Of a stretch of 52,051 nucleotides of DNA, positions 1-17,613 are shown in pieces (positions within the stretch are counted from its first letter, which is position 1; the number at the start of each line of letters is the position of its first letter). The notes beneath the pieces are model-generated. The model had not been told where the DNA came from. It worked only from the letters and a program-made list of their open reading frames with translations, and searched no databases. A program made the position numbers and the translations under genes. Source of the DNA: Candidatus Omnitrophota bacterium (GTDB lineage: Bacteria > Omnitrophota > Gorgyraeia > Duberdicusellales > Duberdicusellaceae); the NCBI GenBank assembly GCA_021163425.1, contig JAGGWS010000054.1, forward strand, positions 1-52,051, given 5' to 3'.

Positions 1-168
1 AGTATGGCTGGATGAGTATACCTCACCCTGACCAAAAACATCAGCTGCCTGGCGCCACCTGCCTGAGATAGAATTACGGATATAAGCAAACATAAAAATC
101 AGGGCTAAAACGCACACAGCAATTAATACAGTATATTCCAGGATACTCTGATATTTCTTCTTATTCAT
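1..168 (-). CDS. Flp/class III-type pilin, 3' end beyond window
   Basis: Only the first 56 codons are inside the window; the gene continues past the left edge. The start ATG at 168 overlaps the stop of the next gene upstream in an ATGA arrangement. The N-terminus has a short basic leader followed by the motif QSILEY and then a hydrophobic stretch of about 20 residues. Counting Q as residue 1 of the mature protein puts Glu at +5 and Tyr at +6, as in Flp pilins of Tad systems and in class III signal peptides. It is the last visible member of the pilin array that begins near 5.44 kb. It is a probable secreted pilus subunit or minor pilin; the C-terminal part is unseen. Confidence 0.8.
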   Translation of the reverse strand, partial: MNKKKYQSILEYTVLIAVCVLALIFMFAYIRNSISGRWRQAADVFGQGEVYSSSHT

Positions 169-1010
169 TTTCTATGTAATATATTTACCAATCTGCCTTC
201 TCCCTGGGGATTTTCCATTATTACTATTATAGCTTCTCCGTAAGGACCCTTAAAATAAAGATTATAGGCTGAAGTTAAAACATCTAAAGATACAGGGGAA
301 CCTTGAGGCAACTTGCCAGCTAAATTTTTAAGTTCATCTCCCAGCTGAGAAGAGGGAATTTCAGCAGTCAGCTTCCAGTAATGATAACCCATATTTTGTT
401 TGTAGAATTTTCTTAATTCCTCTATTGACTGGCTGCACCTATAAACTATATTAACCATAAAAGGAGTATCATTCTTCACATTAATCAGCCTGATACTTCC
501 TGGAGGACGGGGTATAAATTCCAAATCCTCACCGGGTAAATCCTGAGTAATACTATCAAAGTTCTGGGTGGTGCTCTCTGGCCGAGATGTTAAGGAATTA
601 TTTGAAGAAAAACCACCTCCACAAACAGGGCACCCTTCACTGGAACCACCAGAAGGCTGATTATAGACAGAGACTATCACAGTTGTACCAGGAAAGCCTT
701 CCTGAGCTTTCATTATCTGAATATTTATAACCTGGCTTTTTTTTGTATATTTAAATAACCTGAGGTTAGCCTGGTGGAATTCTTTGCTGGCTTTAGTAAA
801 CCCTTTATCTCTAAGATTCTTATCATAAAAATTTATAAGGTCAACTTCAGTTAAGGTAGTCTGAAAAACATAGGCTTTTATATCCTGGCCAGATACACTA
901 ATATTCTCCTCTCTTTGATAAAAAACAGAAGGAGGTTTAAGATAAGAGAGGTCCTGGGTATAACCCAGAAAATTTAAACCCATTAAAATAATAAATATTA
1001 TTAAAGGCAT
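165..1010 (-). CDS. Secreted two-repeat protein of unknown function
   Basis: 281 residues starting with a signal-peptide-like hydrophobic segment (about residues 2-18). I do not recognise the family. The protein seems to contain two related halves: each has an FYxxNxxxxG-type segment (about residues 61-70 and 203-212) followed by strands ending in VIVSVYNQP in the first half and AIIVIMENPQ in the second. The halves are joined by a Gly/Ser/Thr-rich linker with a CPVC pair near residue 127. It lies between a TadG-like gene and another pilin gene and overlaps the latter by 4 bases, so it is co-transcribed with the pilus locus. A periplasmic accessory role in the Tad-like machine is inference. 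Confidence 0.6.
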   Translation of the reverse strand: MPLIIFIILMGLNFLGYTQDLSYLKPPSVFYQREENISVSGQDIKAYVFQTTLTEVDLINFYDKNLRDKGFTKASKEFHQANLRLFKYTKKSQVINIQIMKAQEGFPGTTVIVSVYNQPSGGSSEGCPVCGGGFSSNNSLTSRPESTTQNFDSITQDLPGEDLEFIPRPPGSIRLINVKNDTPFMVNIVYRCSQSIEELRKFYKQNMGYHYWKLTAEIPSSQLGDELKNLAGKLPQGSPVSLDVLTSAYNLYFKGPYGEAIIVIMENPQGEGRLVNILHRK

Positions 1011-1014
1011 AATT

Positions 1015-1914
1015 TTACCTCGTGGAAACTAACCGAGAATCATAAGTATGGTCCCTCCAGGGCCGCACTGAACCATCATAAGTTATAGCTTGAGCATAGC
1101 TTTCTATGGTCCCGTACCTCATCTTCCACAACCCAAAATCTCTATCTGAACGATATTTCCGGGCAGTTACTCCAATCGGGCCGTGTTCATGACTAACTCC
1201 CGATAGAGCAGCTATAAAAGGCATAGGCAAACAAGGACAACACTGGCAGCATCCGCAAGATAGACCGCAACATCCTAATCCTATAACTACTACTGGCCGC
1301 CATAAAATATGGGGAGTAGGAGTAGGGACGTGGTCAAGGACTACCTGAGCATAATTCTGGCCATACCTGTCATTCCAAGTATACTTATGAGGGGGATTTT
1401 TATATTCTTCATCATCCATCCATTGAGAAAATCTGCTTTTCTTTCTTAACCACTCCTCATAAGACTCTCCAGGAATATGAGGCTTTACCTCTTCTATCCC
1501 AATATTCTGAAAAGCATAACTGTAAGCTGTCTCTCGAACATTATCAGGAATCTTCCCGGCCATAACTCTTGCCAGCAAATAAAGAGCTAAAGCCACAGCA
1601 AAAAAAGTAGCATACAACGCCCAGGCTCTCCAACACCACCTACAGGAAGCAAGGACAACAACTGCCACCAGATAAAAACCGAACATCATATCGCTATGAA
1701 AACCCAAATTCATCAATCCCTGCCCATACACAGTTGCTCCAGCTAAAGCTCCAGCATCAGCAGCATTAGAGGTATCGGTTTTAAACATACTAATCTTACC
1801 AATATTTACTGTAATCATAATAAGCAGGACTACTATAGCAATTAAAGCTATTAAAAAAGGGGCTATCTGCCCCTTAAAATAATTTATCTTCTCTTTAGAA
1901 AAATATACAAACAT
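1015..1914 (-). CDS. TadG-like pilus-assembly membrane protein, Cys-rich
   Basis: 299 residues. Residues about 14-62 resemble the N-terminal 'Tad' domain found in TadG-like proteins: KGQIAPFL, a long hydrophobic segment, then a polar part ending TSNAADAGALAGA. Two further hydrophobic stretches follow (about residues 74-118). Near residue 212 there is a cluster of eight cysteines within about 15 residues (CCGLSCGCCQCCPC). This is strikingly unlike a normal TadG and could bind metal or form disulfides. There is no von Willebrand domain, so the protein is far shorter than classical TadG. It sits four bases upstream of the secreted protein gene and downstream of the pilin array. Role in pilus tip or anchoring is inferred. 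Confidence 0.65.
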   Translation of the reverse strand: MFVYFSKEKINYFKGQIAPFLIALIAIVVLLIMITVNIGKISMFKTDTSNAADAGALAGATVYGQGLMNLGFHSDMMFGFYLVAVVVLASCRWCWRAWALYATFFAVALALYLLARVMAGKIPDNVRETAYSYAFQNIGIEEVKPHIPGESYEEWLRKKSRFSQWMDDEEYKNPPHKYTWNDRYGQNYAQVVLDHVPTPTPHILWRPVVVIGLGCCGLSCGCCQCCPCLPMPFIAALSGVSHEHGPIGVTARKYRSDRDFGLWKMRYGTIESYAQAITYDGSVRPWRDHTYDSRLVSTR

Positions 1915-2149
1915 TTTATAATTATTTTAGCATAATAATTTGATTAATGATACTAAAAAATCTAAACCTGCAGGAAATTGCCGGTTTTACCTCTACATAT
2001 TTTAATTTAAGCTTTACCCTTCTTCTGCTTCCTTTTTTACTTTGAGTAACTCTATCCAGCTTCTAAATCTCCTTATCTCGTTTCTGAATAACGCCTCTCC
2101 TCCCAGTCCGTTAATTTCTAAATTCCTTCTCTCCTAGAAACTTTCTAAA

Positions 2150-2434
2150 TTATCTTTCCCTCTCTACTTCTACTTCGGGAATACCTTTAAATACCCAGTC
2201 CTCTGTTAGATACATTGCTGAATAACCCTCAGGTAGCCATTGACCAGGACTTCCCTCAGGATTGGCAGCAACTTTTCTGGTTTGCTCATAAGGAGCTTGT
2301 CTATTAACAAAATCAGCATTAAAAAAAACCCAGATACGGGTAGTCCCCAAAATAAGCATAGCTAAAGCCACAAACATTAAAATAAACTCTATTACTACCT
2401 GCGAGTTATTTCTTATTAGTGAGGAGTTACCCAT
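2150..2434 (-). CDS. TadE-like/class III-type pseudopilin
   Basis: 94 residues. The N-terminus reads NNSQVVIEF followed by a hydrophobic helix (about residues 16-34). With Q as mature residue 1, Glu is at +5 and Phe at +6, so it fits the pilin pattern of the neighbours although the leader lacks lysines. The later part is short and polar with no recognised domain. It overlaps the 3' end of the upstream pilin gene by 19 bases, which suggests translational coupling. A non-coding stretch of 235 bases separates it from the TadG-like gene; I see no gene or clear structure there. Confidence 0.7.
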   Translation of the reverse strand: MGNSSLIRNNSQVVIEFILMFVALAMLILGTTRIWVFFNADFVNRQAPYEQTRKVAANPEGSPGQWLPEGYSAMYLTEDWVFKGIPEVEVERER

Positions 2435-3084
2435 ACCCTTTCCCTCTCCTTATTATACTGACTTGTAACCTCCCAATACCAGGCAGGATCATATTCATAA
2501 TCATCCGGATAATCATTGCTCTTTCTCCAGTTAAAACGACCGTAAAGTTTAGTAACCACAGTATCAGCTATTGAAGCTGTCTCAGTGGTGGTTATATTTT
2601 CAGCCGATTCCTGCTTAGTAAAAGTTGAAGAATAGTCTTCCCAAGATTGACTCTCTACTTTATAAATCTCTACAGGAACTTTTACATCCGATTCGTTCCC
2701 CTCATCATCCTCTACTTCTTTTTCTATCCTGGGAAGCTTAATTTCTCTTCCGTCAACTTCATAATAGGCTTGATTTTCACATACACCTCTACACCACATA
2801 ACTGAAGAAGTAGCATTTACTTCTCCTCTTCTACCCTTAGCAAAAGGTCCCTGAATATCTACATTCCGTTTGTGCCTGAGGATAGTATAACTGACCGAAG
2901 CATTGGCATCGTAAGCTTTTCTTAAAGCTTTTCGGAAAGCTTCCATCTTAAGAGAATGTTGTTGATTTAAACTCTGACCATAGGATATAAGCACTCCCAG
3001 AGCAAAAATTAAAAGACTCCCGAATATAGCCATTTCTGCTGAAGCCTGAGACTTTCTTCTATTCAAGCCAATCCTCAAACCCAT
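2416..3084 (-). CDS. Large class III-type pilin-like protein
   Basis: 222 residues, the longest member of the array. The N-terminus RRKSQASAEM is followed by a hydrophobic helix up to about residue 38; Q+1 and Glu+5 are kept but Tyr+6 is Met. The soluble part has a CRGVCE pair near residue 98, which could form a disulfide, and a long acidic region rich in E, D and S. It overlaps the upstream pilin gene by 26 bases and the downstream one by 19, so it is part of a tightly packed operon. Probably a minor pilin or a TadE/F-type pseudopilin; the assignment rests on the N-terminus and context. Confidence 0.7.
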   Translation of the reverse strand: MGLRIGLNRRKSQASAEMAIFGSLLIFALGVLISYGQSLNQQHSLKMEAFRKALRKAYDANASVSYTILRHKRNVDIQGPFAKGRRGEVNATSSVMWCRGVCENQAYYEVDGREIKLPRIEKEVEDDEGNESDVKVPVEIYKVESQSWEDYSSTFTKQESAENITTTETASIADTVVTKLYGRFNWRKSNDYPDDYEYDPAWYWEVTSQYNKERERVWVTPH

Positions 3085-3472
3085 CTCCTGTGCTCCTTTG
3101 AATTAAGGTGGTCTTAACAACCTTTTGACTGCTGAAATCCCCAATATAATTAGAAATAACTCCTTTATGCTCATGATTGATAACCCGGGAATAAATATCT
3201 GTATCTTCTTCAGCTTCTATCTCATCTTCTTTGTAATGCAGAGCTATACTGCCCTGATAATCTTTAGTTGCTATAACTTCACCTTCTCCATTAAACACAT
3301 TCTCTCTCCACTGGCTAGGCCCTTCTTTAGTCCAGAGAGCTAAATTACTTACCTGTTTTATTCTTTTAGCAAGAATTCTTCTAAATATTGGGCCAGTAAA
3401 GAGAATAACGGTGGCTACTGCCCCAATAACTAAGGTCCAGGATAATATACTTTGAGATTTTCTATAATTCAT
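3059..3472 (-). CDS. Atypical class III-type pilin (EY replaced by SW)
   Basis: 137 residues. The leader YRKSQSIL matches its neighbours but the next two residues are Ser-Trp instead of Glu-Tyr. It is the only array member without the +5 Glu that most type IV pilins use for methylation and subunit docking. A hydrophobic helix follows (about residues 10-30), then a charged soluble region. It lies one base after the stop of the 3474-3797 pilin gene and overlaps the next gene by 26 bases. The missing Glu could make it a first-assembled or capping subunit, by analogy with GspK and PilX-type pseudopilins that lack it. That role is inference. Confidence 0.7.
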   Translation of the reverse strand: MNYRKSQSILSWTLVIGAVATVILFTGPIFRRILAKRIKQVSNLALWTKEGPSQWRENVFNGEGEVIATKDYQGSIALHYKEDEIEAEEDTDIYSRVINHEHKGVISNYIGDFSSQKVVKTTLIQRSTGDGFEDWLE

Positions 3473-3473
3473 A

Positions 3474-3797
3474 TTACTCTGGCCAATCTTCTGTAGCTAA
3501 AGCATCAACTGCCTCCTTAGAAACAATCTTAGTAGTCCAATCATAGCCCTCCTGAGGAGTTAGGTTGGTACGGGTTACTCCACCTTCAGTAACAGTCTCA
3601 GTATGGGTTCTGGTTTCAGTAACTATCAAAGAAGTGGTATGCCCGGGAGAATATTGGGAACCTACCTGCTCCATCTGAGTTTTAATCCTTCCCTGATAAG
3701 CTCTTTTTATAAAATTCTGGCCAATTAAAAGAGCAAAGATTATTACTGAAAACAAAACCACATATTCCAGAATACTTTGAGATTTCTTTAAACTCAT
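3474..3797 (-). CDS. Flp/class III-type pilin
   Basis: 107 residues. LKKSQSILEY leads into a hydrophobic helix (about residues 11-28), so the predicted cleavage is before Gln, with Glu+5 and Tyr+6. The soluble part is Thr- and Glu-rich, with a run of THTETVTE-like alternation near residue 64 that suggests beta strands or an extended surface. The gene is one base upstream of the following pilin gene and 26 bases after the preceding one. Secreted pilus subunit by motif and context; no function for the soluble domain is recognised. Confidence 0.78.
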   Translation of the reverse strand: MSLKKSQSILEYVVLFSVIIFALLIGQNFIKRAYQGRIKTQMEQVGSQYSPGHTTSLIVTETRTHTETVTEGGVTRTNLTPQEGYDWTTKIVSKEAVDALATEDWPE

Positions 3798-3823
3798 ATC
3801 TTCCCGGTAAACTTAATTAAAAA

Positions 3824-4273
3824 TTATTCCTCCCAAGAACCTTCTAAAGAAAAATCATCAAAGGTGGTGGTATCGTAATCATCATATTCATAAGTTTCCT
3901 CAGCTAAAGCATCAGTCTGCCTGTATCTCTGAATCTTAGTCTCTCCACCTGTTCTATCTACCCGGGAATAAAGGTTTCCTGATTGAAGGTCGTGCACGCC
4001 TTGGGTCTGGTCGCCAGTAATGAAATTATCCACATTCTCGTCAGTATTTATATTCTCAGTAATTACCTGGTCAGTAGTTAATTTTTCTTTATAATGCTCC
4101 TGGCTGTTACTAAATGACCAACCTTCATTACTTATACTCTCACCTTGTTCTTTAATATAACCCTGGGCCCTCCTCTTTAAAAATGCCTGTCCAATTATAA
4201 TTGCTGCTACTATCACTGAAAAAAGGGTAATATACTCTAAAGAACTCTGGGCTTTCCTTAATTTAATCAACAT
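3824..4273 (-). CDS. Flp/class III-type pilin with acidic soluble domain
   Basis: 149 residues. The ATG at 4273 is preceded by a strong ribosome binding site (AAAAGGAGGG, five bases away). LRKAQSSLEY is followed by a hydrophobic helix (about residues 13-29). The remaining ~115 residues are hydrophilic, acidic and repetitive in style (many T, D, E, Q, Y), ending in an Asp/Glu-rich tail. Predicted cleavage before Gln leaves Glu+5 and Tyr+6. The leader and the first coding residues (MLIKLRKAQS) are nearly the same as in the next gene upstream, so these two probably arose by duplication. Confidence 0.78.
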   Translation of the reverse strand: MLIKLRKAQSSLEYITLFSVIVAAIIIGQAFLKRRAQGYIKEQGESISNEGWSFSNSQEHYKEKLTTDQVITENINTDENVDNFITGDQTQGVHDLQSGNLYSRVDRTGGETKIQRYRQTDALAEETYEYDDYDTTTFDDFSLEGSWEE

Positions 4274-4314
4274 CCTGACCCTCCTTTTAAAATATTATTA
4301 ATATTTATTATTGA

Positions 4315-4668
4315 TTATTCTTCTAGAGTATCTACTTCTATAGTTGTTCCCTCTCTCTTTTGCTTAGTCTTATATATCTTCTCCTCAGCACCACCTTTTT
4401 TAATCAATCTTTCGTTTAAGTAATCCTCAGCGCTTATCACAGTATCATAATGTTGCTGTTCATATTCAGGAAGTGCCTCAGTTCCATATTGACTTAGGTC
4501 AATATCTCCTTCACCAGTCTGGTCATCATAATAACCTAAAGCCTGCTGAGCCTTCTTTTTCAAAGCACCTTTAAGAAGAACCTGGCCTACTGCTAAAAAA
4601 GCAATAACTGCTGTAAATACCAAGGCGTATTCGGCTGTAGATTGAGCTTTTCTTAACTTAATTAACAT
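4315..4668 (-). CDS. Flp/class III-type pilin
   Basis: 117 residues from the ATG at 4668. I prefer this start to a TTG two codons earlier because AAAAGGAGG lies seven bases upstream of the ATG. The leader MLIKLRKAQSTAEY repeats that of the 3824-4273 gene. The hydrophobic helix spans about residues 13-32 and the soluble part is acidic. Q+1, Glu+5 and Tyr+6 are all present. It stands in the middle of the pilin array and is most likely a secreted pilus subunit. Confidence 0.78.
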   Translation of the reverse strand: MLIKLRKAQSTAEYALVFTAVIAFLAVGQVLLKGALKKKAQQALGYYDDQTGEGDIDLSQYGTEALPEYEQQHYDTVISAEDYLNERLIKKGGAEEKIYKTKQKREGTTIEVDTLEE

Positions 4669-4695
4669 AATCAAACCTCCTTTTAAATTTAACTT

Positions 4696-4884
4696 CTATT
4701 CTTCAGTTGAGAAAACTCCTACATCCATACTACTAACTGCCTTATCCACTGTAGCCTCAGCTTTATCTTTGTATTGGGTACTTAACTTATTCTTTAAGGC
4801 TGAAGCTACTAAAATCATAGCTGCCACCACTACTGAAGCAATTAAGGTATACTCCACGATACTCTGAGCTTTTCTCTCTAACAT
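4696..4884 (-). CDS. Small Flp-type pilin
   Basis: 62 residues from the ATG at 4884, chosen over an ATG seven codons upstream because a strong site (AAAAGGAGG) sits seven bases before it. The product has the leader LERKAQ, the motif QSIVEY, a hydrophobic helix rich in Val and Ala, and a short amphipathic tail with Lys and Asp. Size and layout closely match true Flp pilins of Tad systems (about 50-70 residues), so this and the 57-residue gene next to it are the best candidates for the major shaft subunit. The strong ribosome binding site agrees with high expression. Confidence 0.8.
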   Translation of the reverse strand: MLERKAQSIVEYTLIASVVVAAMILVASALKNKLSTQYKDKAEATVDKAVSSMDVGVFSTEE

Positions 4885-4926
4885 AAATATACCTCCTTTT
4901 TTCATCTTACCCCTTTTCTCGTCTTA

Positions 4927-5100
4927 CTATTCCCCTAATAACTGAGAAAGCTTAGAAGTAGCATCCTGCATAGCCTGGTTTGCGTCTTGAATACCCTTTT
5001 CCACACCTGACTGAATCTTCCCCAGAAAACCTAACAAAGCTGCAATTATTACTGCAGTAATAAGCACATACTCTACCAAACTCTGGGACTTCTTAATCAT
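4927..5100 (-). CDS. Small Flp-type pilin (57 aa)
   Basis: This short frame begins at ATG 5100 and ends at TAG 4927. The product starts MIKKSQSLVEYVLITA, has a hydrophobic helix to about residue 26, and ends in an amphipathic helix with Gln, Asp and Ser. The Q+1/E+5/Y+6 pattern is intact and the size is that of a canonical Flp pilin. Its start overlaps the last eight bases of the upstream pilin gene (5093-5275), indicating translational coupling. It is easily missed by length cut-offs but fills the only gap in the array, and I consider it real. Confidence 0.82.
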   Translation of the reverse strand: MIKKSQSLVEYVLITAVIIAALLGFLGKIQSGVEKGIQDANQAMQDATSKLSQLLGE

Positions 5101-5275
5101 TTATCACCTCATATTCCAGTTCGTAAGCATTACTCTGAGATACCTCCTCCTGAATCTGCTTTAATCGGGCATTTATTGAACGAAATACATACTTATTCAT
5201 TAACATAAAAGCAGCCACTACAGCTGTAAATAAAACTGCGTATTCAAAAATACTCTGGGATTTTTTTAAACACAT
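5093..5275 (-). CDS. Small Flp-type pilin
   Basis: 60 residues: LKKSQSIFEY followed by a hydrophobic helix (about residues 11-29) and a charged helix-like tail ending in acidic residues. Size and signal match Flp pilins. The gene overlaps the next pilin by eight bases and follows the previous one after a single base. Together with the two genes downstream it forms a trio of canonical-length Flp-like subunits at the head of the array, while later members carry larger soluble domains. Confidence 0.8.
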   Translation of the reverse strand: MCLKKSQSIFEYAVLFTAVVAAFMLMNKYVFRSINARLKQIQEEVSQSNAYELEYEVIND

Positions 5276-5276
5276 T

Positions 5277-5441
5277 TTATTCTCCTAAAATTCTTCCTTT
5301 TACCTCTTCAAAGTGATTCTCAAAAATATTTGTCCGGGCATTAGAAACAAAAGAAAAAGTTAAAAAAGTGCAAGAGACTACGATTATAAAAAGGATAATA
5401 TACTCTAATAAAGATTGAGTCTTTCTCTTTTTTCTTTCCAT
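5277..5441 (-). CDS. First Flp-type pilin of the array
   Basis: 54 residues from the ATG at 5441: MERKKRKTQSLLEY, then a hydrophobic helix and a short polar tail. An in-frame ATG at 5501 would add 20 residues, giving an oddly long basic leader, so I favour 5441; neither start has a clear ribosome binding site. Q+1, Glu+5 and Tyr+6 are kept. The gene lies 130 bases after the HTH/DDE-like gene and one base before the next pilin. It is the first of eleven tandem pilin-like genes. Confidence 0.72.
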   Translation of the reverse strand: MERKKRKTQSLLEYIILFIIVVSCTFLTFSFVSNARTNIFENHFEEVKGRILGE

Positions 5442-5571: not shown

Positions 5572-7032
5572 TTACAGAGAAAAAAAGAGAATTTTTCTCT
5601 GTCTAAAGAATATATCTGCTTCATTAAGAAAGGCTAAAATCTCCTGTAAAAAACCAGCCTTTTCTAAGAAGACTCTCAAGAAACCAGGTTTCTTTTTAGA
5701 GATTCTCCCCTTTAATTTAAAAATATTCTCCCAATTTTTAAAATTTTTAGCTTTTCCTAAGAGGTATTTATGGTAAAAATAATCTTTTAAAAATTCTCCT
5801 AAAATAGCAAAAAAATTCTCAGAATTAAGAAGAGAGATAAAAGAAGAGACTTTCTCCTCTAAAAAAGGAAAGATTTTGTTGAAACTAAAATGAGTTATAA
5901 GTTCTAAATCTCTCAATAAGCCTCTCTCCAGATAAGGAAAAGCTAAGGTATAAAATTTAACTAACCTTTCTAAAGAAAAATTGGTATTAGTGAATATCCC
6001 CCAGCAAAAGTCTTCTTTCCTTTGCCTTTTTATGAGGACAAATCTTTTTCTAACCTCTTTAATATCAATTAGTTGTGAAGATTTTATTTTAAATTCTCCG
6101 GCGTATATCCTCTCTTCTAATCCTGGTATTTTAAAATTAACAAAAGGAGAAATTCTCTGAGCTCCTCCCTTGGCAACAATCTCCTGGGGCAAAAACCCTA
6201 ATATGAAATCAAAAGAACGAATATTCAGCCTCTCTAAAACCTGAGTTCTTCTCCCTATAACTTCTAAACTCTCCACTCCTGAAGGAAGACTTTTGAGAAG
6301 CTGGATAAAAGCAGGGGGGAATTTGCCAAAACAAGGTATTCCTAAAATTATAAAAATAGCTTCTCCTTCTGAAATCTTTTTGAGCTTTTCCTTCACCTTT
6401 ATAAAAGGGAGAGAGAAACTGGGAGGGATAAGCTCTTTTCCCCTCCAGAAACTGCGAAACTCAGGGTCAATGTAAATAGAAAATTTGTTTTGAAAAACTA
6501 TTCTCAAAGAGTGTACTTCTTTTAAAGAAAAGGAGAATCTTTCTCTCAAAAGATAAGAAAGTTCTTCTTCCTGGAACTTATTAAGAAAGTGTCTCAAAGC
6601 CTTAGCAGAAAGAGGTTTATCTAAATTAGAAAAAAGAGCCAGCCCTTCTCCTCCTAAACTTTTGAGAACTGAGCCATAAGTAAAGTAATCTATTAAATAT
6701 TCTAATTTATCTGGAGAATAGTGAGGAAAAACTAAGCCAATACTCTCTTTCAATATCTGAGAAAGGCAGATATCGGCCTCAGCAGATTTTAAAAGAAGCA
6801 AACCACAATTATCTACCTTCTTTATCTTCAGAAAAGGAAATTCAGACTTTCTTCCCTTCTTTCCTTTTACACCCTGGGAAATCAGGACTTTATTTATTAA
6901 AGATTTGGAAATCACCAGGGAATATTTATCTTTCAAAAGAAGACTCAACTTCCGGCAACCTAAAAGAGGATTGCGCTTCTTCTCTTTGAGAATAAGGGAT
7001 TTTATTTCTGGGGTAAGCTTCTTTTTTCCCAT
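5572..7032 (-). CDS. HTH protein with decayed DDE-transposase-like body
   Basis: 486 residues. Residues 1-60 form a helix-turn-helix of the type seen in IS481/IS630-like transposases (NPLLGCRKLSLLLK, then a second helix with SKSLINKVL). The middle resembles a DDE nuclease fold: a first Asp in SIYIDPEF (about residue 195), then a strand where the usual 'DRGF' is replaced by GRRT (about residue 260), followed by SFDFILGF. Later there is WGIFTNTN and a Tyr-rich helix with LERGLL in the place of the third acidic residue. The second catalytic Asp appears lost, so cleavage activity is doubtful. The gene is 20 bases downstream of the CpaE-CpaF fusion gene and shows no terminal repeats. It may be a domesticated DNA-binding regulator; this is inference. 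Confidence 0.55.
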   Translation of the reverse strand: MGKKKLTPEIKSLILKEKKRNPLLGCRKLSLLLKDKYSLVISKSLINKVLISQGVKGKKGRKSEFPFLKIKKVDNCGLLLLKSAEADICLSQILKESIGLVFPHYSPDKLEYLIDYFTYGSVLKSLGGEGLALFSNLDKPLSAKALRHFLNKFQEEELSYLLRERFSFSLKEVHSLRIVFQNKFSIYIDPEFRSFWRGKELIPPSFSLPFIKVKEKLKKISEGEAIFIILGIPCFGKFPPAFIQLLKSLPSGVESLEVIGRRTQVLERLNIRSFDFILGFLPQEIVAKGGAQRISPFVNFKIPGLEERIYAGEFKIKSSQLIDIKEVRKRFVLIKRQRKEDFCWGIFTNTNFSLERLVKFYTLAFPYLERGLLRDLELITHFSFNKIFPFLEEKVSSFISLLNSENFFAILGEFLKDYFYHKYLLGKAKNFKNWENIFKLKGRISKKKPGFLRVFLEKAGFLQEILAFLNEADIFFRQRKILFFSL

Positions 7033-7052: not shown

Positions 7053-9227
7053 TTATTCTTGAGGAGTGAAAACTTCTCGAGGAACTTCTAAACCCTTAGC
7101 TTCCATTTCTTCAAAAAAGGAAGGAATATAGCCGGTAGCTGTAAAATAACCCAAAACCTTATTTTCCTCATCTAAACCTGTTTGTCTGAATATAAATATA
7201 TCCTGTAAATTAATATGGGTCTCATCTAACATTCCGGCAACCTCACTAATCTGAACCACCTTTCTTGAACCATCAGATAGTCTTTGAGTATGAACTATTA
7301 AATCTATAGCTGAAGCAATCATTTCTCTGATTGCCCTTATAGGAAGTTCAACCCCTGACATCAAAATCATCGAGTCTAATCTTATTAAAACATCAGAAGT
7401 AGAATTAGCGTGGATTGTGGACATAGAACCGTCGTGACCGGTATTCATCGCCTGAAGCATATCTAACACTTCTTTTCCCCGGCACTCGCCTACTATTATC
7501 CTATCTGGCCTCATTCTCAAAGAATTTCTGAATAAATCTCTTATAGTAATTTCTCCCCTTCCTTCAATATTAGGGGGCCGGGACTCCAACCTTATCCAGT
7601 GTTTCTGGTTAAGCTTGAGTTCTGCGGAATCTTCAATAGTAATTATCCTCTCTTGCTCAGGGATATAGGAAGATAGAATATTAAGAAAAGTGGTCTTTCC
7701 TGAACCTGTTCCTCCTGAGACTAAAATATTTTTTCTGGACTTTACTGCCGCCTCTAAAAATTGAGCCATAGAATGGCTGATACTTCTCAACTTATCTATT
7801 AAATCACCTATCGTAAGCCTTTGTCTGGCAAATTTTCTGATAGTTAAGGTAGGTCCGGTCAAAGACAAAGGAGGGATTATTGCGTTTACTCTTGAACCAT
7901 CAGGAAGACGAGCATCCACATAAGGAGATGACTCGTCAATCCTTCTCCCCAAGGGAGCTAAGATTCTTTCAATAACTACTCTAACCTGCTCATCAGAGGT
8001 AAATCTCTTACTGGTAAGCTCAATCCTGCCCTCTCTTTCAACATATATCTGGTCTTTATTGTTCACCATTATCTCAGTAATACTGGGGTCTTTTATTAAA
8101 TCTTCTAAAGGACCCAAGCCTAAGGCTTCGTCTATAATCTCTTTAGTTAATTTTCTTCTTACCTCCAAAGAAGAGAGAAAACTGCCAGTTTCCTGCGTTA
8201 AAATATTCGCTACAATTTTTTCTGCATCTTCTCTTAATTTCTTAGATCTCTGAGGATTTAAAAGGATTGGCTCTACGGGCAATCTTCTTAAGTCTAACTC
8301 TTCAATCAACCTCTGGTGAACTTTTTTCTTAATCTCTACTATAACATCTTCTTCTTCACTTATCTCTATCTTCTTCAAAGGTTCTACCAATCCTAATCTT
8401 GCCCAAAAATCTTCAACCGCCGTCTCCTCCTTTTCTTTTTTAATCTTCAACTCTGTCAATTTCTTATGAGGGATGTATAAATTCTCATCTTCTAACATCC
8501 TAGAAGCCAAATTTTTCAAGGCAACAGCTATTTTGCTATGAGGACTATCTTGAATTACGGGAATTCCTCTATTTAAAGCTAAACCTACAATTTTACCCTC
8601 TGAAGGAAGAGTTCCTAATAACTCTGCAGGCATCAAAAGCTTAACTTCCTGAAGACTTACCCCTCCTTCACTCTCAGCCCGATTAACTATCACTCTCACC
8701 ATCTTTAAAGGAAAACCTAAACTTTGAAGCGTATCTAAAACCCACTCAGTCTGATATACTGAAAGAATATCAGGAGTAACTACTAAGAGAATCAGGTTAG
8801 AGATACCAAAGATTTTTAATAAGAGGTCAGTTAAATTTTTTCCTCCATCTATAATAATAAAATCAAAACCCAATCCCCTAAAATTACTTAAGATACTCTC
8901 AACATACAAAGGTTTAAGATGAGGGGTGCTTCTTAAAGATAAGACTCCGGGAAGAAAGTATAAATTATTGTTTACTTCTGAAAAACACCCTCTTATTCTT
9001 TCTCCATTCTTTTTTAAACTTTCCCAATTCCCTACCATATCTACTAAAGCTCTCCGGGGATGAAGATTCAACATTTTAGCCATATCTAAAGGTCCCCCCA
9101 GGTCTAATTCTAAAAGGAGAACCTTTTTGTTAAGAAGAGAAAGAGCTAAGGCGGTATTTAAAGAGATAGTAGTTTTCCCTACACCACCTTTAGTGCTAAA
9201 AAAAGTAATTACTTTAGTAGAATCCAT
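7053..9227 (-). CDS. Fused CpaE (MinD-like) - CpaF (TadA) pilus ATPase
   Basis: 724 residues made of two ATPases that are separate proteins in standard Tad systems. Residues 1-250 form a MinD/ParA-like domain with deviant Walker A KGGVGKTT (13-20) and IIIDGG; this matches CpaE without its receiver-like N-terminal domain. After a charged linker, residues about 300-700 form a CpaF/TadA type II/IV secretion ATPase with Walker A SGGTGSGKTT (504-513), TIEDSAEL, Walker B RIIVGECRG (about 576-584) and the His-box STIHANS. All key residues are intact. The ATPase should power pilus assembly at the inner membrane, with the MinD part locating it. It lies nine bases after the secretin gene. Confidence 0.92.
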   Translation of the reverse strand: MDSTKVITFFSTKGGVGKTTISLNTALALSLLNKKVLLLELDLGGPLDMAKMLNLHPRRALVDMVGNWESLKKNGERIRGCFSEVNNNLYFLPGVLSLRSTPHLKPLYVESILSNFRGLGFDFIIIDGGKNLTDLLLKIFGISNLILLVVTPDILSVYQTEWVLDTLQSLGFPLKMVRVIVNRAESEGGVSLQEVKLLMPAELLGTLPSEGKIVGLALNRGIPVIQDSPHSKIAVALKNLASRMLEDENLYIPHKKLTELKIKKEKEETAVEDFWARLGLVEPLKKIEISEEEDVIVEIKKKVHQRLIEELDLRRLPVEPILLNPQRSKKLREDAEKIVANILTQETGSFLSSLEVRRKLTKEIIDEALGLGPLEDLIKDPSITEIMVNNKDQIYVEREGRIELTSKRFTSDEQVRVVIERILAPLGRRIDESSPYVDARLPDGSRVNAIIPPLSLTGPTLTIRKFARQRLTIGDLIDKLRSISHSMAQFLEAAVKSRKNILVSGGTGSGKTTFLNILSSYIPEQERIITIEDSAELKLNQKHWIRLESRPPNIEGRGEITIRDLFRNSLRMRPDRIIVGECRGKEVLDMLQAMNTGHDGSMSTIHANSTSDVLIRLDSMILMSGVELPIRAIREMIASAIDLIVHTQRLSDGSRKVVQISEVAGMLDETHINLQDIFIFRQTGLDEENKVLGYFTATGYIPSFFEEMEAKGLEVPREVFTPQE

Positions 9228-9236: not shown

Positions 9237-10808
9237 TTAGTCTAACTTATAGACTACAGGTATCTCTATCCAAAGTTCCTTCTCTTCTATCGAAGAAGGA
9301 AAAGGAGGGTAATGCCTTATTTCTTTTACTGTCCTCAAAACAGTCTCATCAAAAACCTTATATCCTGAAGATTGAGGAATCCTGGCTGCTATTAAACTAC
9401 CATCGGAGGAAAGATGCAAACTCAACTTTACCATACCCTGCCAGCCAGCTTCCTCGGCTAAAGCCGGATAAGCCAAAGCAGAACTTATCCTTCTCTGAAT
9501 CTCTCTTATATAATTAGCTAAAGGCAAAGATATACCTTCCTCTTCTTTAACCAAAGGCTTATAAGTAGAAGCTATTTTCTTAAGCTCTTCTTCCTCAGGA
9601 GCATATCTTATAATTTGAGGGGTTAAAGAAATTACTAATTCTGTCTGGTCTCGCTGGTAATCTTTGGACCTGAACAAAGCTCCCAGAACAGGGATATCAG
9701 CTAACCCCGGAACTTTATTTAGATAGTCCTTGCTCACCTTATCTTCAAGAAGTCCTGAAATAAATATGCTCTGCCCGTCTTTAAGAAAAAGCTGGGTCTC
9801 GGTAGTCCTCTTGGTGAAAGCAGGCACAGAGTATTGAGAGGAACCCGAATCAGGAATGAATACAGTAACATCTAAAGAATTATCTGCATCAATCTCACTA
9901 ATCTCTGAACGCAAGTTTAAAACTATCCCTTTGTCTTTTATTGTAGGACTTATATTTAATTTTATCCCGTATTCTTTATATTCCACACTGGGCTCTCCCT
10001 TTCTATAAGTAAGTATAGGAATTTCTCCTCCTACCAAGAAAGAGGCTTCTTTACCTGATAAACAAAGGAGTTTTGGCCGGGCTAAAATCTTACCCTTACC
10101 TTCTTTCTCCCATAAATTAACAGTCGCCTCTAAAGCGGTTCTTGTCCAGTCAACAATCCTTATTACCTCTGAAGGAGTCCCTCCCAAACCTGCAGATTTA
10201 TTAGCTATGCTTTCTGACCATTCCATTGAATGAGACCAATCTATACCCAGCTGGTCAATCAACTGTTTAGATAACTCTAATACTTCCACATCAATGCGGA
10301 CTAAATCTCTCTCCTCTTTAACCCTAAGAAAATTAGTAATATTTGCTGAATACTTTTCTATAACTCTATTAATTCGGTCTAAACCATCTTTAGATACCAC
10401 TCCCTCTAAAATAATCTTGCTATTCAACTCATCCTTTCTGATAACTACATCTTTAATCTTAAGCTCTTTATTAATCAGTTGAGAAATCTTCTCTTTTAAG
10501 CTATTTAAATCTTCACTTAATACGTTCACTTCGAATATTCTTTTACCGGTCTTTTCCCAGACTTCTACCTGAGTAAATCCGGTTTTCTTGCCTAAAAATT
10601 CTATCCTATTTTCTTTAACCTTTACTATTTCTAAAACTTCCGGCTTTCTAATAAATATCTTTTGGGGTGAAAATGTCTTTACTGAAAGAATCTCTCCCAC
10701 CACTATCTCGTAGGATTCAATTTGAGCTGAGGAAAGAAGGGGGTCTAAGAAAAATAAGAATAGAATCATAAAGAGTGGTTTCACTTTAGAATTTAAACCT
10801 TTTTTCAT
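9237..10808 (-). CDS. cpaC: CpaC/RcpA-type secretin with C-terminal TonB domain
   Basis: 523 residues with a signal peptide (about 1-28). The domains in order are the pilus N-terminal domain typical of CpaC (about 30-95), a BON-like domain (about 110-155), the secretin core (about 225-410, with the VPAFTKRTTETQL and GLADIPVLGALF signatures), and a TonB C-terminal domain at 434-523 (YPALAEEAGWQG, SSGYKVFDETVL, HYPPFPSS). The first three are standard for the Tad outer-membrane channel. The TonB domain, normally on energy-transducing inner-membrane proteins, is unexpected here. The start overlaps the cpaB stop by four bases (ATGA). The TonB part may contact peptidoglycan or outer-membrane partners; that is speculation. 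Confidence 0.9.
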   Translation of the reverse strand: MKKGLNSKVKPLFMILFLFFLDPLLSSAQIESYEIVVGEILSVKTFSPQKIFIRKPEVLEIVKVKENRIEFLGKKTGFTQVEVWEKTGKRIFEVNVLSEDLNSLKEKISQLINKELKIKDVVIRKDELNSKIILEGVVSKDGLDRINRVIEKYSANITNFLRVKEERDLVRIDVEVLELSKQLIDQLGIDWSHSMEWSESIANKSAGLGGTPSEVIRIVDWTRTALEATVNLWEKEGKGKILARPKLLCLSGKEASFLVGGEIPILTYRKGEPSVEYKEYGIKLNISPTIKDKGIVLNLRSEISEIDADNSLDVTVFIPDSGSSQYSVPAFTKRTTETQLFLKDGQSIFISGLLEDKVSKDYLNKVPGLADIPVLGALFRSKDYQRDQTELVISLTPQIIRYAPEEEELKKIASTYKPLVKEEEGISLPLANYIREIQRRISSALAYPALAEEAGWQGMVKLSLHLSSDGSLIAARIPQSSGYKVFDETVLRTVKEIRHYPPFPSSIEEKELWIEIPVVYKLD

Positions 10809-11647
10809 CTCTCTACTACTACTGAGCTTTTTTCTGTTCCCTTATATACCTCCACAGTCTTAGGAGGAGGCGGAGGCGTAGGGATAACCTGCCTTATCCC
10901 CAGTAGTTTCTCCCAGAGTTTATCTACAGTAATTGGCACTCTTTTAAAATCTGCCTGAGTATCAAACATAGAACGTAATAATAATTTAATCTTCCCGATT
11001 TCTATAGCATAAGTAAGTAAAGAGGCCTGCTCAGGAGTCAAAGCCAGAGTAATAGTGGTAGGTGGCTTCTTTTCTTCTCTACCTAAACTTACCGCTTCAA
11101 TCTTAGCTCCCACAGCTAATACTAATACATTCTCGAACATAGGAACTACCATAGTCTGGTTAACAGTTTTTCCTCCCTGTGTCGGCACAGGGATAGAAAA
11201 ACTTCCTACAATATCTACAGAATCTCCAGGATTTATCATTCCTTCTATAGAAGATATCTTATCCACAGGGATAGTAATTGCTCTTTTACCCTCAGGAATC
11301 TTTAAGGAAAGACTTTTTTGTGAACCCGGTATCATAAGAAAAGAGGCTCTGATTTGTTCACCCTCTATAATGTCTCTCTTAGCTATCTTACCTACTATTG
11401 AATCTAAAGAGGTTAAAGCATCGGGTTGTAAGCGTTTAGAGGGTATCCTTGCCCGGATCAACATCTCTGAAGAAATTTTTGTTTTAGCCGGGATATCTTC
11501 TTTAGCTACAACTACCTCTACAATCCCTCTTTTTCTGGCAAGTTCTAAAATCTTCTGCCTCTCAGATTGGACATAGGAATGTATTAAGAATATAGCAGTT
11601 AAAGCTAATACAATTGCTGTAATAAGATAAACTCTCTTCTTATCCAT
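10805..11647 (-). CDS. cpaB: Pilus assembly protein CpaB/RcpC (SAF domain)
   Basis: 280 residues: one N-terminal membrane helix (about 7-24), then a SAF domain (VVVAKEDIPAKTKISSEML, about 45-110) and the RcpC/CpaB domain (GKRAITIPVDKISSIEGMI, SVDIVGSF, ALTPEQASLLTYA). This matches the CpaB family, periplasmic partners of the Tad secretin. A Pro-rich stretch (PTPPPPPKT) near the C-terminus could span the periplasm. It follows the parvulin gene after six bases and overlaps cpaC by four. Length and motifs are usual for the family. Confidence 0.92.
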   Translation of the reverse strand: MDKKRVYLITAIVLALTAIFLIHSYVQSERQKILELARKRGIVEVVVAKEDIPAKTKISSEMLIRARIPSKRLQPDALTSLDSIVGKIAKRDIIEGEQIRASFLMIPGSQKSLSLKIPEGKRAITIPVDKISSIEGMINPGDSVDIVGSFSIPVPTQGGKTVNQTMVVPMFENVLVLAVGAKIEAVSLGREEKKPPTTITLALTPEQASLLTYAIEIGKIKLLLRSMFDTQADFKRVPITVDKLWEKLLGIRQVIPTPPPPPKTVEVYKGTEKSSVVVER

Positions 11648-11653: not shown

Positions 11654-12541
11654 TTATCTTAGTAAGTCTTCATTAATTACTACTTCGGATTTCTGCTTAG
11701 CTGAATTTATCAACTCTTCTATTTTTTTATTCGTTTTATCAATCTTTAAAGCTTCTCTTATCGTTTCTTTAACTTCTGAAAGAGGGGCAATTTTACCACC
11801 TCTCTTATCTTCTACTTTAAGAATATAAAATTTTCTATCTTCTCCTTTAAATATACTGGAAACTTCTCCTTTATCCAAAGCTAAAGCTATTTCCCAGAAT
11901 TTTTTAAATTTTTTAGAAGGGTCGTACTTAATATAGCCTAAGTCTCCTCCTTTATTTCTGGAATCAGCCACTGAATACTGGGTGGCTAAAGAAGAAAAGC
12001 TTTCTCCCTGAAGGAGACGAATATATAAGTCTTTAGCTTCCGATTCAGAATTTACTACGATTTCCCTGATCTTTATTTCCTGAGGATTTCTAAAAAATTC
12101 TTTATTGCGCTCGTAAAACTCTTCTATCTCTGCTTCAGTAACTGTAATGTCGGCAATTTCTTCTTCAACAAGTTTCTGGGCTAAAAGGCGTTGTTTATAA
12201 TCATCCAGAGCCTCTATGAAATCTGAGTCTTTATCTAAACCCCGGGCTTTTGCTTCTTCTGCTAAAAGAGCATTTCTCACCAGTTCATTTAATACCCTCC
12301 TTTTAAATTCATAATTATTAATATCTATCTTCTGCTCTTTAGCTAAAGGTTCTAAAGCTTTAAGTTCCTTTTCAAAATCTTCCAAACCAATACGCCAATT
12401 ATTTACTTGAGCTAAGAGCGGGCCCTGAATTTTCTTCTCTTCTGAAACATCAGTGGGTTTTTTAGAAGTAGTAAAATTCTGGCAAGCTGATAACAAAAGT
12501 ACAAAAGAAACACCAACAATACTCCTTATAACTTTTTTCAT
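11654..12541 (-). CDS. Parvulin-type peptidyl-prolyl isomerase lipoprotein
   Basis: 295 residues. The N-terminus is a lipoprotein signal with lipobox LLSAC (Cys about 20). A SurA-like N-terminal helical region follows, with DVTVTEAEIEEFYERN-type spacing, then a rotamase (parvulin) domain at about 155-250 (IKIREIVV, SFSSLATQYS, NKGGDLGYI, ALALDKGEVS). It would fold or chaperone exported proteins at the membrane. An ideal ribosome binding site (AAGGAGGAGG) precedes the ATG. It is the first gene of the Tad operon, so it may serve folding of the secretin or pilins, as PrsA/SurA relatives do for outer-membrane proteins; that specific role is inferred from position. Confidence 0.87.
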   Translation of the reverse strand: MKKVIRSIVGVSFVLLLSACQNFTTSKKPTDVSEEKKIQGPLLAQVNNWRIGLEDFEKELKALEPLAKEQKIDINNYEFKRRVLNELVRNALLAEEAKARGLDKDSDFIEALDDYKQRLLAQKLVEEEIADITVTEAEIEEFYERNKEFFRNPQEIKIREIVVNSESEAKDLYIRLLQGESFSSLATQYSVADSRNKGGDLGYIKYDPSKKFKKFWEIALALDKGEVSSIFKGEDRKFYILKVEDKRGGKIAPLSEVKETIREALKIDKTNKKIEELINSAKQKSEVVINEDLLR

Positions 12542-12591
12542 TTTACCTCCTCCTTGTTAAAATTATGATACCCTCCTTTCTCTACAAAAAG

Positions 12592-12620
12592 ATTTTATCC
12601 TTAAAATTTAAAAAAATCAA
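12592..12620 (-). promoter_or_regulatory. Predicted sigma70-type promoter of the Tad operon
   Basis: -35 TTGATT (12615-12620), a 17-base spacer, and -10 TAAAAT (12592-12597), reading towards the parvulin gene at 12541. The leader would be about 45 bases and carries a strong ribosome binding site. The structured element at 12647-12754 lies upstream of this promoter, so it is not part of the leader. Confidence 0.5.
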
Positions 12621-12646
12621 GATTTTTATTTAGATATGTAAAAAGT

Positions 12647-12754
12647 AGAAAGGCACAGGCGTAAACCCCCCAGATGAAGAAAAAGTCCTGAAGGATAATA
12701 CCCAAAAGCCATCCTCTCCTTTCAAGGAAAGAAAGGGGTAAGCCCTGGTAAGGG
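12647..12754 (+). repeat. Structured ~110-bp element, copy A
   Basis: GC-richer than its surroundings and located directly after the pilQ stop codon. Read on the plus strand it shares ordered blocks with 45566-45676 read on the minus strand: AGAAAG, CAGG..TAAAC, CAGATGAAGA, GAAGG.TAAT.CCC, AAAGCCA, then a hairpin, then GGGGT, TAAGCC and TGGTA. The hairpin here is CCTCT..CTTTC-AAG-GAAAG..AGGGG. Copy B forms the same hairpin from different bases (ACCCCG..CTTT/AAAG..CGGGGT), which looks like compensatory change. The end CCCT-GGTA-AGGG followed by TTTT could be a weak terminator. The true strand and function are unknown. Confidence 0.6.
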
Positions 12755-12756
12755 TT

Positions 12757-14136
12757 TTATTTCTCAGGAAGAGCAGTCTCTTTCTTCTTCGCCGTTAGAT
12801 TTTCTTCAGAAATCCCTTCTTCTTGAAATTTAATAATCTTAGGAGTAATAAAAATTAAAAGATTCTTCTTCTCCACAGTTTTATTCTTATGCTTAAAGAG
12901 ATAGCCCAGTAGAGGGATATCTCCGAAAATGGGTATCTTATTTACTGTATCTACTGTTTTATCTCTCACCAGCCCACCTATTACTAAGGTTTCTCCATTT
13001 TTAACAGTAACCCGGGTGGATGTGGTTTGAGTATATAAGACAGGTATCTCAGCAGTTACTCCTGAAGCAGAAGAAAACTCCTTATCTCCTAAGTTCTCAC
13101 TGACTTCCGGCTTCACCAGAAGAGTAATGAATCCTCCTTTATGAATCTGGGGAGTAACTTCCAAGACAACCCCATACTCTACATAGTCAAAACCAGAAAT
13201 CTCCCAACTGTTAGTATCACTACTGTATGTATAATTAGGAACAGGATCCTTAGTCACAACATTAATAGTAGCAGTATTATTATCTTGAGTAGTAATAGAA
13301 GGAGTAGAGAGAATTTTAGTATTGGTGTCGTTAAAAATAATATCTAAAACTGCCGAAAGATCAGAGGCATTCAATGTCCCATATCGAAAAACATCACTAA
13401 GAGTAGAATGAACGCTAGAAACCGCGGGTATATCTGTATCTCTTAAATACTTATTAGAAGAATGAGTAGTAAATGGCCAGGTATGGGCCCTCCTGCTTCC
13501 TGAAACAGAACCTTCTATATTCCAGCTAATACCTAATTTATTAGTAATATCTAAATCTGTTTCTACAACCTTAGCTTCAATTAACACCTGGGGAGTTATT
13601 TTATCCAGTTCTCGAATGGTTTTTTCTATCTGGTCAAGATTGGAGGGTATATCAAAAACAACTAAAACATTCGTTCGAGTGTCGTAAGAAATTTTTCCTT
13701 CAGGAGTAAGAGATTTTTCTATAATTGGTTTTATCTCTTCTACCTTAGCGAAACTTAAAGAGAATGTCCGCACTTCTGGAGTTTCCGTTTCCTTCGCTTC
13801 TCTAACCTTTACTCTCTGCTGGGTTAAATTCTCTATAGTATCAACATATATTACATTCTCTCCCATCTTTTCCCAGCCATAGCTGTAAGGCCGAAGTACT
13901 GCTTTCAAAGCTGTCTCTAAGTCCACGTTCTTTAATTGGATGGTAATTGCACCTTCCACCTCTGGAGAAAAAACAACGCTTTTACCAGTATTTTCAAAAA
14001 GAGCTCGAATAACAGTCTTTATATCTGTGTCCTTAAACTTGAGGTTCTCAATCTTAATACTCTCCTGAGAGAAAAGTAAAAAGTTAAATAAGGCAAAAAA
14101 TAAGAATAGAGAAAATCCCATATTTTTACTCCTCAT
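12757..14136 (-). CDS. pilQ: Type IV pilus secretin PilQ
   Basis: 459 residues with an N-terminal signal peptide (about 7-24). Residues about 27-95 are a secretin N0/STN-type domain (FKDTDIKTVIRALFENTGK), residues about 110-185 an N1 domain, and residues about 260-445 the secretin core (ILSTPSITTQDNN, VKPEVSENLG, TVNKIPIFGDIPLLGYLF). It forms the outer-membrane pore of the type IVa pilus. It is short for PilQ because the AMIN domains that bind peptidoglycan are absent. It overlaps pilP by 11 bases and closes the pilMNOPQ operon. It is clearly distinct from the Tad secretin 2 kb away. Confidence 0.92.
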   Translation of the reverse strand: MRSKNMGFSLFLFFALFNFLLFSQESIKIENLKFKDTDIKTVIRALFENTGKSVVFSPEVEGAITIQLKNVDLETALKAVLRPYSYGWEKMGENVIYVDTIENLTQQRVKVREAKETETPEVRTFSLSFAKVEEIKPIIEKSLTPEGKISYDTRTNVLVVFDIPSNLDQIEKTIRELDKITPQVLIEAKVVETDLDITNKLGISWNIEGSVSGSRRAHTWPFTTHSSNKYLRDTDIPAVSSVHSTLSDVFRYGTLNASDLSAVLDIIFNDTNTKILSTPSITTQDNNTATINVVTKDPVPNYTYSSDTNSWEISGFDYVEYGVVLEVTPQIHKGGFITLLVKPEVSENLGDKEFSSASGVTAEIPVLYTQTTSTRVTVKNGETLVIGGLVRDKTVDTVNKIPIFGDIPLLGYLFKHKNKTVEKKNLLIFITPKIIKFQEEGISEENLTAKKKETALPEK

Positions 14137-14488
14137 TTTCTTCCTCCGTTTTTAAGATTATTCTCTTCCCTTTTCCACTTACTACTACCGAATTGGAATT
14201 TATCTGCTCTATCCTGTAAAAATTTATCATATCTCCTTCTTTAAAAAGTTCATTATTAATTATAGCTGTTCTATGCTCTCTTTCAGAAGAATAAATAATC
14301 CCATTTAATTTTAAATCCCCTACTCCTCTTACCAACCTTAGATTAATAATACCTTCCTTATTTATCAAAGGTTCAAAAGGGTCCCTTTCTAAGTCTGGAG
14401 GATAGATAAATTCTTTCTCAGCCCTTAAAGGTGAACTAAATAAAATTAAAAAAGCTAAAAAGAACCCTATTCTCTGACAATACCCCAT
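14126..14488 (-). CDS. pilP: Type IV pilus assembly protein PilP-like
   Basis: 120 residues with a signal peptide (about 7-23). RDPFEPLI followed by GVGDLKLNGIIYS and a closing strand pattern match the PilP/GspC homology-region fold (periplasmic beta domain that touches the secretin). PilP is usually a lipoprotein, but I see no lipobox here and the signal ends PLRAEKE, so this protein may be free in the periplasm. It overlaps pilO by 22 bases and pilQ by 11. The assignment relies on the fold pattern plus its exact place in the operon. Confidence 0.75.
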   Translation of the reverse strand: MGYCQRIGFFLAFLILFSSPLRAEKEFIYPPDLERDPFEPLINKEGIINLRLVRGVGDLKLNGIIYSSEREHRTAIINNELFKEGDMINFYRIEQINSNSVVVSGKGKRIILKTEEENEE

Positions 14489-15554: not shown

Positions 15555-15576
15555 TTTCTTTTGATTATGACTTTGA

Positions 15577-16569: not shown

Positions 16570-16578
16570 TCCAGAATA

Positions 16579-16606
16579 ATTATTGCATAATATTAAGAAA
16601 TGTCAA
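16579..16606 (-). promoter_or_regulatory. Promoter of pilMNOPQ, leaderless layout
   Basis: -35 TTGACA (16601-16606), 16-base spacer, extended -10 TGC-AATAAT (16579-16584). The start codon of pilM begins nine bases after the -10 box, so transcription should start about three bases before the ATG. The -35 continues as TTGACATTTCT, shared in form with the promoters at 18449, 48780 and 51236. Confidence 0.65.
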
Positions 16607-16709
16607 TTACTTTAGGCTAAACACTACAAAAGCTCTCTAAACAATATTCTTCTGTCTTCAAGTTGCTTTAAAAATCCTTTCTCTTTGAAATTTATCTATA
16701 TTTAGGAGT

Positions 16710-17558: not shown

Positions 17559-17584
17559 AATTTTTTTATTCTCCCTGAAAATTA

Positions 17585-17613
17585 ATTATAACATTTAATT
17601 ATCCTATCGGCAA
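17585..17613 (-). promoter_or_regulatory. Promoter of the PaaX-like gene; rest of the gap
   Basis: -35 TTGCCG (17608-17613), 17-base spacer, extended -10 TGT-TATAAT (17585-17590). The leader would be about 20 bases and contains AGGGAG twelve bases before the TTG start. The rest of the 415-base gap up to the pilin gene holds no gene; it contains the inverted repeat at 17812-17855 and the pilin terminator at 17927-17955. Confidence 0.6.

Follow-up and report, generated by a model that had tools for sequence, protein, structure and literature searches.

The pilin array

The 52,051-nucleotide contig JAGGWS010000054.1 (assembly GCA_021163425.1) of a Candidatus Omnitrophota bacterium, referred to here as the window, covers contig C39 from end to end; the genome to which it belongs measures 1.19 Mb and is 94% complete. 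Next to the left edge of the window, which is the contig edge, lies a bacterial Tad locus containing an array of eleven pilin genes. Among the single-locus Tad pilin sets that we have found described, the largest of which have two to four genes, none equals this array in size or order; it is a variation on a known machine. The pilins probably make up a surface fibre built from many specialised parts. Our favoured explanation, which we judge rather likely on the strength of sequence comparisons, is a multi-subunit bacterial Tad (type IVc) pilus in which the eleven pilins and a TadG-like protein encoded among them would each have a conserved role of its own.

An original prediction, made from the sequence alone, had described eleven consecutive small genes whose products share a basic leader, Gln at the predicted +1 position and a single hydrophobic helix. 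Inspection of the open reading frames (ORFs) confirmed the eleven genes and these shared features, with ten adjacent minus-strand ORFs running from 5441 down to 2150 and an eleventh, cut by the contig edge, at 1-168; in the ten at 2150-5441 the glutamine follows S, A or T. Gln+1 is found in all eleven and, as also predicted, Glu+5 in ten, the exception (3059-3472, pilin h) having SQSILSW with S at +5. Only ten of the genes are consecutive, however, since between the tenth (pilin j) and the eleventh (pilin k) lie a 235-bp gap, the gene for the TadG-like protein (1015-1914) and that for a 281-aa exported protein (165-1010). Five pilins rather than three are of canonical Flp size (54-62 aa when the start codon closest to the leader is used, the ORF at 4696-4905 being 69 aa long but having a 62-aa version), and the longest domain after the helix comprises about 168 residues rather than 190. 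The genes are tightly packed, some overlapping or almost touching, as would be expected of one transcript; promoter and terminator scans yielded barely more than the shuffled expectation.

A strict detector, requiring Gln+1, Glu+5, a basic leader and a helix, gave nine matches in the whole window, every one inside the array, against 0/40 in third-order Markov shuffles. The two array members that it missed were lost solely through S+5 or Y-1, and four other stretches of the same genome gave no match. The basic leader, cleavable site, Glu+5 and long hydrophobic N-terminal helix (predicted at about 38-56 residues from models of pilins g and i) are all features of the type IV filament superfamily.

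Conservation across the class

The comparison was made within the Omnitrophota and covered 77 related genomes for the TadZ-TadA fusion protein and the peptidases, and 117 genomes of the phylum for a profile of pilin slot g. With TadZ-TadA as query, matches were obtained in 45 of the 77, the named relatives being Candidatus Omnitrophota. Synteny, which the original prediction had proposed as a check, proved to be conserved: the same ordered array is present in 21 further loci of the class, holding 7-17 pilin genes each, with the low counts mostly from truncated or interrupted loci. Over 152 locus pairs the median rho of reciprocal best hits between arrays is 1.0, and rho exceeds 0.8 in 86% of pairs, as against 3% with shuffled order; the window array is collinear with each other locus relative to permuted orders (z 1.2 to 5.2). 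Such almost perfect collinearity indicates that the pilin genes are orthologous slots, not random duplicates, and it is this class-wide order that favours a multi-subunit fibre. The slot g profile gave 4-10 matches in each of 29 genomes, all of the same class, and a single match in each of only two genomes outside it; two Tad loci outside the class (L095 and L093) have three and four pilin-like genes. A genome of the same genus (G001) has the whole locus: all eleven pilins recur there in unchanged order and are followed by tadB, tadC and a giant ORF, and the intact orthologue of pilin k in this genome (59 aa) directly precedes tadB/tadC.

A Tad locus with a pilin array was also seen in the metagenome-assembled genome Omnitrophica 4484_171 (L062 / L081, MVCW01000039.1), though a 2023 survey gives family 4484-171 as being without Tad.

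The slots can be told apart by signatures: QSTAEYA in slot e, KRG.QG...QYSPG in slot g (from an alignment of 14 orthologues), AE.AIFG...FR.AL in slot i, with a terminal W.TPH in several families, RQ..YE.TR in slot j, and a tail ending in K/RH..QE.L.E in slot b. Departures from Gln+1 and Glu+5 are largely confined to particular slots: slot h in relatives has N, S, A or Y at +1 or is without Glu+5, one slot carries Asp at +5 (AQSFLDYAAL), and slot k is without Glu+5 in much of the taxonomic order to which the window belongs. Glu+5 pairs with the N-terminus of the neighbouring pilin, and GspK, the tip-most pseudopilin of type II secretion systems (T2SS), is without it; by analogy, the slot-specific losses of Glu+5 and Gln+1 may mark terminal positions in the fibre.

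Selection and structure

The pilin set is under purifying selection. Between the two genomes of the same genus the pilins show dN/dS values of 0.04-0.34, with the exception of gene d (0.83, on few changes), their frames are intact and the indels all in-frame; three further close genome pairs agree. The original prediction had named a lack of frame conservation as one outcome that would tell against it; the frames are conserved in relatives, and it stands in this respect. The low dS of gene d (0.05) was considered as a mark of the shaft pilin and dropped, having been seen in one genome pair only, with the others unsupportive.

Most of the extended pilins show stronger conservation in the helix than in the tail, by up to 100% against 71% (pilin i). 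The AlphaFold2 model of pilin i has a helix at 5-60 (56 residues) and a beta-sheet domain (pLDDT 81), so that the protein is predicted to be a pilin lollipop, the usual shape of minor pilins; in the model of pilin g the long helix is confident, but the tail is not (pLDDT ~45). A search of PDB sequences with the pilin g profile gave no match, and NCBIfam likewise returned nothing.

Comparison with known systems and a proposed mechanism

With the canonical Tad/Flp locus (RcpA, RcpC, TadZ, TadA, TadB, TadC, Flp, TadE/F/G) the present one shares its machinery genes, the TadG-like protein, putative TadE/F-like minor pilins and Flp-sized pilins with Glu+5. It differs in having eleven pilins rather than one to four, in the absence of TadV from the locus, in two fusions (TadZ-TadA and RcpA-TonB_C) and in a 486-aa protein with a helix-turn-helix (HTH)-like segment before the array. 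In the Kil Tad pilus of Myxococcus, KilL/M/N are tips, KilK/O adapters and KilP the shaft, a division of labour that has been shown genetically (PMC12075869). The likeness to Kil of Myxococcus xanthus lies in the many pilins per Tad system, the large tip pilins, the small adapters and the link to cell contact; however, Kil has four paralogous tip sets in separate clusters, whereas the pilins here, five of them Flp-sized and several of medium size with tails, are encoded together in a single ordered array at one locus. In Bdellovibrio, predation depends on each of three of the four flp genes, with no mutual complementation (PMC5430801). Its flp1-flp4 likewise represent several non-interchangeable Flp pilins in the Tad system of a predator, with TadV missing from the Tad locus, but they number only four, two of them outside the locus; a 2017 report described this as the largest bacterial type IVb set.

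By analogy with the Kil roles and the Bdellovibrio flp data, we provisionally place pilins i and j and the TadG-like protein at the tip, take c or d as the shaft and regard the others as adapter or display subunits. A single PilD-type peptidase would cleave every leader before Gln+1, and the TadZ-TadA ATPase, with TadB/TadC, would polymerise a shaft from one or two pilins of Flp size (c or d), which would exit via the RcpA secretin. Pilins i and j and the TadG-like protein would form a tip-priming complex, as counterparts of Myxococcus KilL/M/N, while pilins a, b, e-h and k, placed at the tip or beneath it, would serve as adapters or for surface display, each with its helix buried in the fibre and its fast-changing tail exposed to contact another cell. 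That some ten to fourteen pilins form an ordered set throughout the class implies that Tad fibres can be devices of many parts.

Several points weigh against this explanation. Only the TadG-like protein exceeds a curated Pfam cut-off; the window pilins lie under those for Flp (PF04964, best score 17.8 bits against 32.2), TadE and class III, although the profile searches proposed in the original prediction did return weak Flp and class III matches. For the domain of pilin i, comparison of the model with PDB folds gave no significant match. That a PilD-type enzyme cleaves at S|Q and A|Q is an assumption, and the choice of shaft subunit is a guess.

A more specific proposal, which we put forward only tentatively, is a heteromeric Tad fibre having ten or more pilins in one filament in a defined arrangement, segmented or layered from tip to shaft, with the slot-specific loss of Gln+1 or Glu+5 fixing position; such a fibre might serve for engaging other cells in this ultra-small, partly predatory class.

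Alternative explanations

The original prediction had also raised a set of interchangeable pilins. In the form considered here these would be major pilins, each gene making its own pilus and the cell switching or mixing them by partner or condition. Several members are indeed Flp-sized, and in one relative (G007; L054, G007:C24) two pilin slots are locally amplified, with three copies each that have near-identical helices. In one of these slots the helices of recent copies are 93-95% alike and the tails only 36-38%, a contrast that would be expected if the tails are exposed and changing with the partner. However, the fixed order of orthologous slots across the class and the slot-specific changes at Gln+1 and Glu+5 point to distinct roles, and the genes overlap or almost touch, as in one transcript. 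The window array shows no repeats, invertible pairs, or signs of recombination or of recent duplication or inversion, and the Bdellovibrio flp genes, three of four of them individually needed, do not replace one another (PMC5430801). The proposal is weakened by all of these, and we consider it unlikely. Phase variation or inversion of the array was rejected as well, for want of suitable repeats in the window.

It is similarly unlikely that the locus encodes a Tad-derived secretion pseudopilus, with the pilins as a short piston whose export substrate might be the giant exported protein encoded just after tadC. Giant ORFs do follow tadC in several families of this genome-reduced, probably predatory class, which is known for giant ORFs (PMC10066038), but the array has no visible match to a T2SS pseudopilin set, the window has, upstream, a T2SS-like gene set distinct from it, and in much of the order to which the window belongs tadC is followed by a gene that is not giant.

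Ordinary relaxed duplication, leaving a few functional pilins among decaying copies, could be read from the fast drift of some slots in sequence and tail length and from the ratio of gene d on its few changes; with the low dN/dS elsewhere, the unbroken frames and the order retained class-wide, we give it little credence compared with a multi-subunit Tad pilus.

Peptidase and the archaeal class III question

An EppA- or TadV-like peptidase had been expected by the left flank, but is absent there, the corresponding downstream flank in the same-genus genome being tadB, tadC and the giant ORF. No dedicated TadV was found in the Tad locus; the sole A24 peptidase found in the source genome is of PilD type, with an A24_N domain, and is encoded on another contig, flanked by an aroE-like and an aroC-like gene. 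Most of the 77 relatives have a single A24 peptidase, with or without Tad genes, as do the array-bearing genomes G064 and G139, each in one or two contigs; a probable genome of strain LiM (G135, see below) has two, the second weak. EppA (PF06847) was found in none of the 77, the same search being positive in four archaeal controls. Different systems may use one peptidase in common, and Bdellovibrio genomes have no TadV (PMC5430801, PMC6668835). With a single PilD-type peptidase and no EppA, it appears from these searches that one enzyme probably processes T2SS- and type IV pilus-type prepilins and Gln+1 prepilins alike, and the array raises the question of one PilD-type enzyme acting on both Gly|Phe and Ser/Ala|Gln substrates.

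The closeness to archaeal class III signal proteins that was originally suggested is valid for the leader motif only. Like archaeal class III/Epd pili, the present system has a K/R-rich leader, Gln+1, Glu+5 and several pilins, and the class III family PF04021 is the commonest, though weak, family match among the pilins (12 of 89 scanned at E<=0.01, best 4e-7; Flp 8); in contrast to them, EppA is absent, a secretin and RcpC are present, and the window pilins, at 16.9 and 14.8 bits, fall below the PF04021 cut-off of 23.7. The GQ+1/E+5 combination occurs in two ordinary bacterial Tad loci as well, and an archaeal Epd-like ancestry has been inferred for Tad in general (PMC6668835), so that the class III likeness is best taken as a trait of the Tad family, with no special archaeal link. 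Recent acquisition of an EppA-dependent class III pilus from archaea, to which the leader motif and this Epd-like descent might be thought to point, is highly improbable in view of the missing EppA, the sub-threshold PF04021 scores and the secretin, RcpC and TadZ-TadA, all parts of bacterial Tad systems.

A probable counterpart in Velamenicoccus

Velamenicoccus is a predator that consumes archaea. In the genome G135, a single contig of 1,974,201 bases, the pilin array lies at about 20.3-27.8 kb. The published Tad locus of strain LiM spans 12382-29832 of CP019384.1, and its expression alongside Methanosaeta in co-culture has been reported (PMC10066038). The coordinates fit, and the array very probably lies within this locus in Candidatus Velamenicoccus archaeovorus LiM. 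The literature on Omnitrophota Tad that we retrieved, which did not extend to the original LiM paper (Kizina 2022), makes no mention of a multi-pilin array. Since the LiM locus is expressed on methanogens, the deposited LiM proteomes could reveal which pilins are made, cleaved and most abundant.

Individual members of the array

All of the pilins are encoded on the minus strand. Pilin a, the first of the array (5277-5441; 54 aa, KRKT|QSLLEY), is 91% identical to its same-genus orthologue, with dN/dS of 0.25. Pilin b (5093-5275; 60 aa, KKS|QSIFEY; dN/dS 0.06) occupies a slot with a conserved tail in most relatives. Two Flp-sized members follow: pilin c (4927-5100; 57 aa, KKS|QSLVEY; dN/dS 0.04), with a weak Flp1_like match, and pilin d (4696-4905; 62-69 aa, RKA|QSIVEY), a shaft candidate with a match to Flp_Fap (PF04964, E=0.003) that is under the cut-off. 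Acidic tails are found in pilin e (4315-4674; 119 aa, RKA|QSTAEY), whose TAEY slot is kept in many relatives, and in pilin f (3824-4273; 149 aa, RKA|QSSLEY), which has a weak Class_IIIsignal match (E=0.028), again under the cut-off. Pilin g (3474-3797; 107 aa, KKS|QSILEY; motif KRG.QG..K / QYSPG) represents the best conserved extended slot, and pilin h (3059-3472; 137 aa, RKS|QSILSW), the one without Glu+5, a slot divergent in relatives. Pilin i (2416-3084; 222 aa, RKS|QASAEM), with its helix and beta domain of about 160 residues, is a putative TadE-like minor pilin, and pilin j (2150-2434; 94 aa, NNS|QVVIEF), in the orthologous slot with the RQ..YE.TR motif, a TadF/TadE-like one; for both, the likeness to TadE/F is one of position and motif, the TadE profile being weak in relatives. 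Only the 5' part of pilin k (1-168; KKY|QSILEY) is present.

The 235-bp gap at 1915-2149 is 97-98% identical in the same-genus genome, above the flanking coding sequence; it occurs once per genome and includes a stretch that can be read as a short open frame.

Tad machinery and neighbouring genes

The remaining genes of the locus are also on the minus strand. It is headed by a SurA-like peptidyl-prolyl isomerase lipoprotein (11654-12541), identified from a profile match and synteny in relatives, which is followed by RcpC/CpaB (10805-11647; PF16976, E=4e-24) and an RcpA secretin with a C-terminal TonB_C domain (9237-10808; Secretin, E=6e-40). Traces of this RcpA-TonB_C arrangement were seen just upstream of TadZ-TadA in relatives. 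The TadZ-TadA fusion (7053-9227), the assembly ATPase, combines a T2SSE domain (E=1e-67) with one of ParA/MinD type. Two further TadA-like ATPases were noted (G000:C17:27512-28531 and G000:C74:23892-25001; L047:2509-3570, reverse strand); in many relatives one such ATPase directly follows TadZ-TadA, which could mean two motors.

Between the ATPase and the array lies the 486-aa protein (5572-7032), whose HTH-like segment is N-terminal (weak HTH_32; alignment of relatives). It matches no family in Pfam or NCBIfam, and proteins of this kind (390-690 aa, with an SKS motif) occupy the same position in most loci of the class. Beyond pilin j, the TadG-like protein (1015-1914; FKG|QIAPFL) matches PF13400 (Tad) at E=2.9e-7, over the cut-off, and is the probable third tip component. 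The 281-aa exported protein (165-1010) has no Pfam match; proteins of about 300 aa occupy the same position in many relatives.

The TadB/TadC pair, which immediately follows the array in the same-genus genome, is found in the source genome at the end of contig C56, where it is followed by ORFs of 1330 and 4625 aa. These two giant ORFs have no Pfam match. Very large exported ORFs, the 4625-aa one of the source genome being the upper limit, were seen after tadC in a number of loci (L041:1-17875, L045:1-3048, L056, L059, L066, L067, L105 and L106), and several of them share a start resembling FLPEQVSWA. Just upstream of the Tad locus, at 12757-25051 of the window, the T2SS-like gene set encodes a secretin (GspD N0, Secretin_N), a T2SSB/C-like protein and a T2SSF platform protein.

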